64,000 bases of DNA from a bacterium. Lineage in GTDB: Bacteria > Planctomycetota > Planctomycetia > Planctomycetales > Planctomycetaceae. Under the pieces are notes generated by a model. That model worked only from the letters and a program-made list of their open reading frames with translations, did not search any database and was not told the DNA's origin. The translations under genes were made by a program, and so were the position numbers. The DNA lies in contig WGMU01000081.1 in assembly GCA_016124895.1 (NCBI GenBank), forward strand, positions 1 to 64,000, written 5' to 3'. Below, piece after piece: positions 21,869 through 24,346 of the stretch; the first letter of the stretch is position 1, and the number at the start of each line of letters is the position of its first letter.

Positions 21869-21925
21869 CGCTGGATTCGCCAGAATTCAGACACAGTCGG
21901 CGGTGGAATTCTGACGAATTCAGCG
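21869..21925. repeat. Palindromic element, family P1, copy B
   Basis: Arms CGCTGGATTCGCCAGAATTC (21869-21888) and its near-reverse complement (21906-21925) match at 18 of 20 positions around a 17-nt loop. It lies 53 bp before the GH2 start. Arm sequence and loop length match the element just after the GH2 gene at 24288-24346, so both belong to one family. Confidence 0.85.
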
Positions 21926-21978
21926 ACTGAACGCTGTCTTACGAACCAGCCAATCTCTTTCTCGAACCGACACCAGCC

Positions 21979-24288
21979 ATGAAACCGATTCCGCAACACA
22001 CGCTTGCCTGGCTGCTGTTCATCGCAGCCATTCCCGCTCCGGTTCTGAAGGTTGACGCGGCCGACTGGGCTCCGATGGAAAGCCCGCTGATGACGCGCTG
22101 GGCGAAACACGTCTCTCCGCAGAACGCGCTGCTCGAGTACCCGCGGCCGCAGCTTGTCCGCGATCGGTGGGCGAATCTTAACGGCCTGTGGGAGTACGCG
22201 ATCGCCGGCTTTGATGATTCGCAACCAGCCGAGTGGAACGGCGAGATTCTCGTCCCGTTTGCGATCGAATCAGCTCTCAGCGGCGTTGGCAAATCCGTCC
22301 AGCCGAATCAGACGCTGTGGTATCGCCGTAACTTTGAGCGACCGAAACTCAGCAGCGGCGAACGACTGTTGCTTCACTTCGGCGCTGTCGACTGGCAGGC
22401 TCAGGTCTGGGTCAACGGTCATTTTGTCGGTGAGCATCGCGGCTGCTTCGATTCGTTCAGCTTCGACATTACCCATGCACTGACGACTGGCGACTCACAG
22501 GAAATCGTCGTCCGCGTCTGGGATCCGACCGACACCGGCGACCAGCCGCGCGGCAAGCAGGTCCTCAAACCGGGCGGCATCTTTTACACCGCGGTGACCG
22601 GTATCTGGCAGACCGTCTGGCTCGAACCCGTTCCCGCCGCCCGAGTTCAATCACTGAAAATCACGCCAGACATCGATAACAGCTCAGTCAACGTCAACGT
22701 CGACGCGACCACGAACGAACGCGTCACCATCGAAGTGCTCGATAAGGGCAAGTCGATCGCCAAGGCTGACGGACAGAACGGCCAGTCGATCACTCTGACG
22801 ATTCCCGCATCGAAACTCTGGTCGCCGGATTCGCCGCACCTGTACGACCTGAAAGTGAGCCTCGCATCTGGCGACGAAGTCTCGTCCTATTTGGGAATGC
22901 GCAAGATCGAAGCCCGCCGCGACGACGCCGGTATGCCGCGGATGTTTCTCAATAACCAACCGCTGTTTCAGTACGGCCCGCTCGATCAGGGCTGGTGGCC
23001 GGACGGGCTGTACACTGCGCCGACCGATGAGGCTCTGAAGTTTGACATCGCGATCACGCGCGAGCTGGGTTTCAACATGGCCCGCAAGCATACGAAGGTC
23101 GAACCGGCCCGCTGGTACTACTGGGCCGACAGGCTCGGACTGCTCGTCTGGCAGGACATGCCGACGCTGATGGCTCGCGGCCAGGCACATCATGTTGGAG
23201 TCGGTCAGGAGCAGGACGCCAACCTGACGGCTCAGGCGCGGATGCAGTTTCATACCGAACTGCGAGCGATGATCGACGGCCTGCGGAATCATCCCAGCAT
23301 CGTCGTCTGGGTGCCGTTCAACGAGGGCTGGGGGCAGCATCACACCAACGAAGTCCTGCAGTGGACGAAGCAGTACGACTCGACGCGGCTGATCGACGGA
23401 CCGAGCGGCTGGCAGGACCGCGACTGGGGTGACCTCAAGGATATGCACAACTATCCGGGGCCGGGCATGTTCCCGGTGATGGAAGACCGTGTCAGCGTGC
23501 TCGGTGAATTCGGTGGCCTCGGTCTGCCGCTCGAAGGCCACCTCTGGCAGGCAGACCGTAACTGGGGCTACCGTACGCTCAAGACGCGCGAAGAACTCGC
23601 CACCGGCTACCAGCGTCTGACGATGCAACTGCACCGGCTCATCGGCAAGGGCCTGGCCGCCGCCGTCTACACACAGACGACCGACGTCGAAATTGAGGTC
23701 AACGGATTGCTGACCTACGACCGCGAAATCGTCAAAATCGACCCGCAGCAACTGAAGCAGTGGCACGCGGCTCTGTACGAATCGCCGCCCGTCGAAACGA
23801 CGATCGTGCCAACGTCAGAACACAAACCGCAAACGTGGCGGTATTCGACCACGCCACCGACCGAGAACTGGTTCGCTGCCGACTTCGACGACAGTAACTG
23901 GAAATCCGCCCCTGGCGGCTTCGGCACCGAGATAACTCCGAACACATCCGTCCGCACGAACTGGAGCACTCCCGACATCTGGATTCGCCGGACGTTTACG
24001 CTCGACGAACCAAAGACCGACGCCGGTCAGTGGCTGCTCTCGCTCTATCACGACGAGGATGCCGAGATTTTCATCAACGGCATCGAAGCCGCCCGCGTGA
24101 CGGATTACACAGTCGGATACATCACGATCCCGATCTCGCAGGCCGCCGCGAAGTCACTCCACTCCGGCGAGAACGTCATCGCGATCCATTGCCACCAGAC
24201 CGGAGGCGGCCAGTACATCGACGCCGGCCTGCTGCGAGTCGAACCGGCTCACCAATCAACAAGTGCCTGTTCTTCTCCTTCGTCGTAG
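21979..24288 (+). CDS. Glycoside hydrolase family 2 protein (beta-galactosidase/glucuronidase type), secreted
   Basis: A 769-residue retaining beta-glycosidase. A signal peptide covers about 1-27 (LLFIAAIPAPVLKVDA). An N-terminal sugar-binding jelly roll (LWYRRNF, HFGAVDWQAQVWVNG) and an immunoglobulin-like domain precede the TIM barrel. The acid/base is E449 in VPFNEGWGQ and the nucleophile is E510 in VLGEFGGLG. After about residue 610 comes an additional beta-sandwich (WRYSTTPPTENW, ...EDAEIFINGIEAA), a second carbohydrate-binding-like module not present in simple family members. The natural glycan is unknown. The gene is flanked on both sides by related palindromes, and the stop codon is the first base triplet of the downstream one. 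Confidence 0.9.
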   Translation: MKPIPQHTLAWLLFIAAIPAPVLKVDAADWAPMESPLMTRWAKHVSPQNALLEYPRPQLVRDRWANLNGLWEYAIAGFDDSQPAEWNGEILVPFAIESALSGVGKSVQPNQTLWYRRNFERPKLSSGERLLLHFGAVDWQAQVWVNGHFVGEHRGCFDSFSFDITHALTTGDSQEIVVRVWDPTDTGDQPRGKQVLKPGGIFYTAVTGIWQTVWLEPVPAARVQSLKITPDIDNSSVNVNVDATTNERVTIEVLDKGKSIAKADGQNGQSITLTIPASKLWSPDSPHLYDLKVSLASGDEVSSYLGMRKIEARRDDAGMPRMFLNNQPLFQYGPLDQGWWPDGLYTAPTDEALKFDIAITRELGFNMARKHTKVEPARWYYWADRLGLLVWQDMPTLMARGQAHHVGVGQEQDANLTAQARMQFHTELRAMIDGLRNHPSIVVWVPFNEGWGQHHTNEVLQWTKQYDSTRLIDGPSGWQDRDWGDLKDMHNYPGPGMFPVMEDRVSVLGEFGGLGLPLEGHLWQADRNWGYRTLKTREELATGYQRLTMQLHRLIGKGLAAAVYTQTTDVEIEVNGLLTYDREIVKIDPQQLKQWHAALYESPPVETTIVPTSEHKPQTWRYSTTPPTENWFAADFDDSNWKSAPGGFGTEITPNTSVRTNWSTPDIWIRRTFTLDEPKTDAGQWLLSLYHDEDAEIFINGIEAARVTDYTVGYITIPISQAAAKSLHSGENVIAIHCHQTGGGQYIDAGLLRVEPAHQSTSACSSPSS

Positions 24289-24346
24289 CTGGATTCGCAG
24301 GAATTCAGCCTGCACTCCAACGCGACTGAATTCCTGCGAATTCAGC
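24288..24346. repeat. Palindromic element, family P1, copy A
   Basis: Arms GCTGGATTCGCAGGAATTCAG (24288-24308, 21 nt) and 24326-24346 pair at 20 of 21 positions around a 17-nt loop. It begins at the last base of the GH2 stop codon. There is no T-run, so it is not a classical terminator; it could still block 3' exonucleases as REP-type elements do (inference). Confidence 0.88.

Follow-up and report, generated by a model that had tools for sequence, protein, structure and literature searches.

Architecture of the GH2 locus

The window analysed herein is a 64,000-nucleotide stretch (G000:C59:1-64000) of a genome of 8.13 Mb in 195 contigs; both the relatives of this genome and the repeats it shares with others indicate a member of the Planctomycetota. 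It carries a gene for a GH2 family glycosidase of 769 amino acids (21979-24288, plus strand; Pfam GH2 domains), preceded by a type I phosphomannose isomerase (PMI) gene (20622-21656, plus strand) and followed by a U32 peptidase gene (24404-27013, plus strand). As an earlier note on this DNA had pointed out, the GH2 gene is bracketed by two related palindromes, and both are real: copy B (21867-21927) lies upstream and copy A (24285-24349) downstream. In the window's list of short-distance inverted repeats, the arms of copy B form the second entry (I2, 21863-21888/21906-21931, 85%) and those of copy A the fourth (I4, 24287-24308/24326-24347, 95%). The near identity of the arms between the two copies (GCTGGATTCGC..GAATTC) was likewise borne out. 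Of the shared 17-nt loop that had been described, the length was recovered but not the sequence, AGACACAGTCGGCGGTG and CCTGCACTCCAACGCGA being identical at only 3 of 17 positions.

The arms of both copies are themselves small hairpins (REPs), so that the element is a REP doublet and not a simple palindrome. Each REP unit consists of a tetranucleotide head (GTAG, GTCG or a variant), an 8-bp stem and a 4-nt loop, and the two units are inverted to each other across a spacer. A single long hairpin can form from the whole doublet, and the predicted hairpins are strong. In copy B, the left REP (21867-21890, plus strand) joins the head ATCG, a GTCG variant, to CTGGATTC-GCCA-GAATTCAG; a 13-nt spacer (21891-21903) separates it from the inverted right REP (21904-21927, minus strand), which has a GTCG head and reads GTCGCTGAATTCGTCAGAATTCCA on the minus strand. 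In copy A, the left REP (24285-24308, plus strand) is GTAG followed by CTGGATTC-GCAG-GAATTCAG, the spacer is 17 nt long (24309-24325), and the inverted right REP (24326-24349, minus strand) has the head GAAG. The published GTAG/GTGG head is therefore strictly present in the left half of copy A and absent from its right half and from both halves of copy B. A third doublet of the family, copy C (62744-62806), had been missed in the earlier note; it has a 15-nt spacer and a GCATTC/GCGTTC stem variant.

Copy A overlaps the end of the GH2 gene. The earlier note had placed its first base on the final nucleotide of the stop codon; the overlap is genuine but more extensive, as the entire TAG (24286-24288) lies inside the GTAG head (24285-24288). 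The GH2 protein encoded in G001, the only genome of the same genus compared, ends in VEPATKAN, whereas the protein encoded here ends in VEPAHQSTSACSSPSS. Since the two ends differ, we infer an order of events in which the insertion of copy A probably altered the last residues of the GH2 protein and supplied its stop codon.

The repeat family across the genome

When the whole genome was searched with a strict pattern, copies A and B were the only matches; a looser pattern gave further sites, and some of these form the same palindrome when folded. A covariance model was then built from six copies, and 150 of the 2869 first-look candidates in the genome were scored with it. At E<=1, the model gave at least 71 matches on both strands, corresponding to at least 38 distinct places in the 8.13-Mb genome, at least 29 of them at E<0.002. 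The copy number of the family in this genome is modest. Units are exemplified by GTAG CTGGATTC GCAA GAATTCAG and GTAG CCGCGTTC GCCA GAACGCGG, and in each case the unit recurs in inverted orientation beyond a spacer. Among 58 halves from 29 copies, the head is GTAG in 28 and GTCG in 12, the rest being degenerate variants.

The stem sequence varies among copies while its pairing is kept, which constitutes compensatory change. Watson-Crick pairing of the 8-bp stem reached 0.83, against 0.68 in column shuffles (maximum 0.72 of 2000), a comparison that serves as a guide and not as a strict probability because the halves are interrelated and were located by consensus. Stems of individual copies may contain a mismatch or a G-T pair. 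Across the 29 copies, arm identity is 84% within a copy and 69% between copies, and the spacer has a mode of 15 nt and a range of 5-36 nt. An outward extension of the palindrome is strong in a few copies only, and neither A nor B is among them. With regard to placement, an open frame of at least 200 codons fully encloses 15 of the 29 copies, compared with 84% of random stretches; this depletion is a crude test, based on frames of that length and not on gene calls. Target-site duplications, which the earlier note had suggested looking for, were sought around the 29 copies and none stand out, the only matches being of 2 nt, in 4 of the 29, near chance. Within the subfamily with the GCGTTC stem (L020, L027, L253), longer shared flanks were observed downstream of the doublets, including a repeat-like stretch, TACAAGCACGAAGCGCAAG.

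The family extends well beyond this genome. Among public genome contigs, at least 116 stretches contain the core 24-mer GTAGCTGGATTCGCNNGAATTCAG, and almost all of them carry planctomycete titles. Some of the matches are inverted pairs with about 7 nt between them. Single REPs are also found elsewhere in tandem arrays, with a period of 39 (L100) or 44 (L132, L135). Application of the covariance model to six related genomes revealed copies in three, including the same-genus G001. Altogether, the search of the genome and its relatives that the earlier note had called for supports its description of the palindromes as REP-like units of a common dispersed repeat. Many copies were additionally observed in JABMRB01, titled Candidatus Nealsonbacteria bin.20 (L080, L083, L087 and others); this title is probably mislabelled or the assembly contaminated.

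Comparison with known REP systems

A REP has been defined as a hairpin with a 7-20 bp stem, a 2-5 nt loop and, 0-2 nt from the stem, a GTAG or GTGG head, and a BIME as two REPs within 150 nt (PMC6006769). Stem (8 bp) and loop (4 nt) of the present family fall within these ranges, the paired units are inverted, lie well inside the 150-nt limit and form one hairpin, and the many, mainly extragenic copies of REPs are matched by at least 38 places with long-frame depletion. The published head is found in the family as well, although many heads read GTCG instead.

REPINs, REP doublets that form hairpins, were described in Pseudomonas fluorescens SBW25 (PMC3116915). The present doublets resemble them in having two inverted REPs, a variable spacer, a long hairpin and compensatory changes, and in their extragenic dispersal with clusters and single REPs alongside. 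They differ in sequence, in length (about 61-65 bp here, roughly 80 bp in SBW25), in their smaller copy number and in that no REP-matched RAYT (REP-associated tyrosine transposase) was found in the flanks examined. Furthermore, a GTAG-tagged REP superfamily of 24 families has been reported, with the PVC superphylum among its listed hosts (PMC3733652). It shares with the present family the GTAG head on a short stem-loop and the often opposite orientation of the units; the frequency of GTCG heads is a difference.

RAYTs are regarded as the enzymes that move REPINs. Two proteins of this genome exceed the NCBIfam RAYT cut-off (NF047646), encoded on C52 (162 bits) and C10 (88 bits), and weaker RAYT-like proteins and IS200-type genes are also present. 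Compared with BIMEs and REPtrons with TnpA_REP (PMC6006769), the family is similar in head, stem and loop sizes, and several RAYT/IS200-type genes in this and related genomes are flanked by GTAG hairpins (for example L040, L041 and L242 in this genome); these hairpins, however, carry other stem sequences. In flanks of about 1.5 kb on each side, where the contig allows, no REP of this family was found close beside a RAYT/IS200-type gene, either in this genome or in relatives, carriers of the repeat included. The sole family REP in these flanks is a single unit lying downstream of the C52 RAYT, about 700 nt away, and none was found in the examined flanks of L262-L264, the closest relatives of that protein. 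Accordingly, no convincing candidate for a REPtron of this REP sequence emerged from the RAYT/IS200-type flanks examined. Other arrangements were observed in the same genome. A RAYT-like gene scoring 55.6 bits, below the cut-off, has the same GTAG hairpin, GTAGGCGAGTTTCTCCGAAACTCGC, on both sides (L242, G000:C105:11227-11541) and, judged by this layout, looks like the REPtron of another REP family. Two neighbouring IS200/RAYT-type genes at G000:C132:9457-10159 (L040, L044) are surrounded by GTAG CCCGGYGTTTYAACRCCGG hairpins.

The GH2 gene and its neighbours

The earlier note had raised the possibility that the GH2 gene is carried as cargo in a mobile cassette with a palindrome at each end. Exactly one gene is indeed bracketed by copies A and B, and the upstream junction is not conserved: in G001, a divergent sulfatase-like gene precedes GH2, and the PMI gene lies beside other genes. 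With one relative compared, the PMI-GH2 side thus appears to have undergone rearrangement either in the lineage of G001 or in that of the present genome. On the downstream side, in contrast, G001 has a GH2 gene 82% identical to the one studied here, with the same U32 gene (89%) next to it, and no doublet is present in its GH2-U32 gap. In this one relative, gene and repeats are therefore not present or absent together, an outcome close to what the note itself had named as telling against a cassette, and the proposal was rejected on this synteny. In addition, GC and GC3 of the GH2 gene are like those of its neighbours, target duplications are lacking, and in a flank-to-flank comparison of copies the A-B pair falls outside the 25 highest similarities. 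A spacing as close as that of A and B can also arise by chance: if 29-45 copies are placed at random, the genome is expected to contain at least one such pair with P 0.22-0.45. Given the G001 synteny without the doublet, the ordinary composition of GH2 and the chance of a close pair, a cassette is unnecessary and its main prediction fails. The GH2 gene is probably not mobile cargo, and a cassette bounded by both palindromes is considered extremely improbable. At the position corresponding to copy A, the G001 gap (L048, G001:C820) contains a different, GC-rich inverted repeat, CCTCTCCCGCTTGCGGGAGAGG.

Nature and spread of the doublets

Because their architecture fits the published REP definition, and in view of their dispersal, covariation, long-frame depletion and spread among planctomycetes, copies A and B are very probably independently placed members of a dispersed REP-doublet family of the REPIN/BIME type, with GH2 as an ordinary resident gene. 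Against this stand the many GTCG heads, the occurrence of some GCGTTC-stem copies in longer shared repeats and the failure to find, in the flanks examined, a RAYT closely flanked by this REP. The inverted arms on either side of a spacer, which match perfectly or nearly so, and the extra shared flanks in some copies of one subfamily would also suit MITEs derived from an ordinary DDE insertion sequence bounded by terminal inverted repeats. This origin was rejected on the lack of target duplications; moreover, the arms are hairpins with a GTAG-type head whose stems vary by compensatory change, and in other genomes the same unit is found, as is usual for REPs, both on its own and in tandem arrays. 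It would be surprising if the doublets proved to be MITEs. Equally slim are the prospects of palindromes kept for function as RNA or DNA control elements, such as terminators or mRNA stabilisers, instead of mobile repeats. The bias against long open frames, the strong predicted hairpins and the position of one copy in the GH2-U32 gap are what such elements would display, but the palindrome is not conserved at the G001 GH2-U32 gap, and a terminator was rejected since copy A is followed by no T-run and no plus-strand terminator was called in 21650-24450.

Under the REPIN/BIME-type reading, the doublets would have spread as single-stranded hairpins processed in trans, now or formerly, by a RAYT, the inferred mobiliser; such processing would leave no target duplication. 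One copy would have landed in the GH2-U32 gap, its GTAG providing the GH2 stop, and another upstream of GH2, which would itself be an ordinary resident. A possible consequence is an effect on the GH2 transcript, for instance by a putative mRNA-stabilising 3' hairpin. A more far-reaching proposal is that such doublets are planctomycete-wide and have no dedicated adjacent RAYT, that an unlinked transposase, or one since lost, mobilises them in trans, and that stops supplied by GTAG can rewrite gene ends; taken as a whole, this is speculative and rather unlikely.

With these results, a non-autonomous repeat of a known kind takes the place of a candidate mobile gene cassette. Planctomycetes gain a well-populated set of REP doublets, comprising singles, inverted pairs and tandem arrays, in which the spread of REPs can be studied, and at the GH2 locus one REP head acts as the stop codon of a gene.
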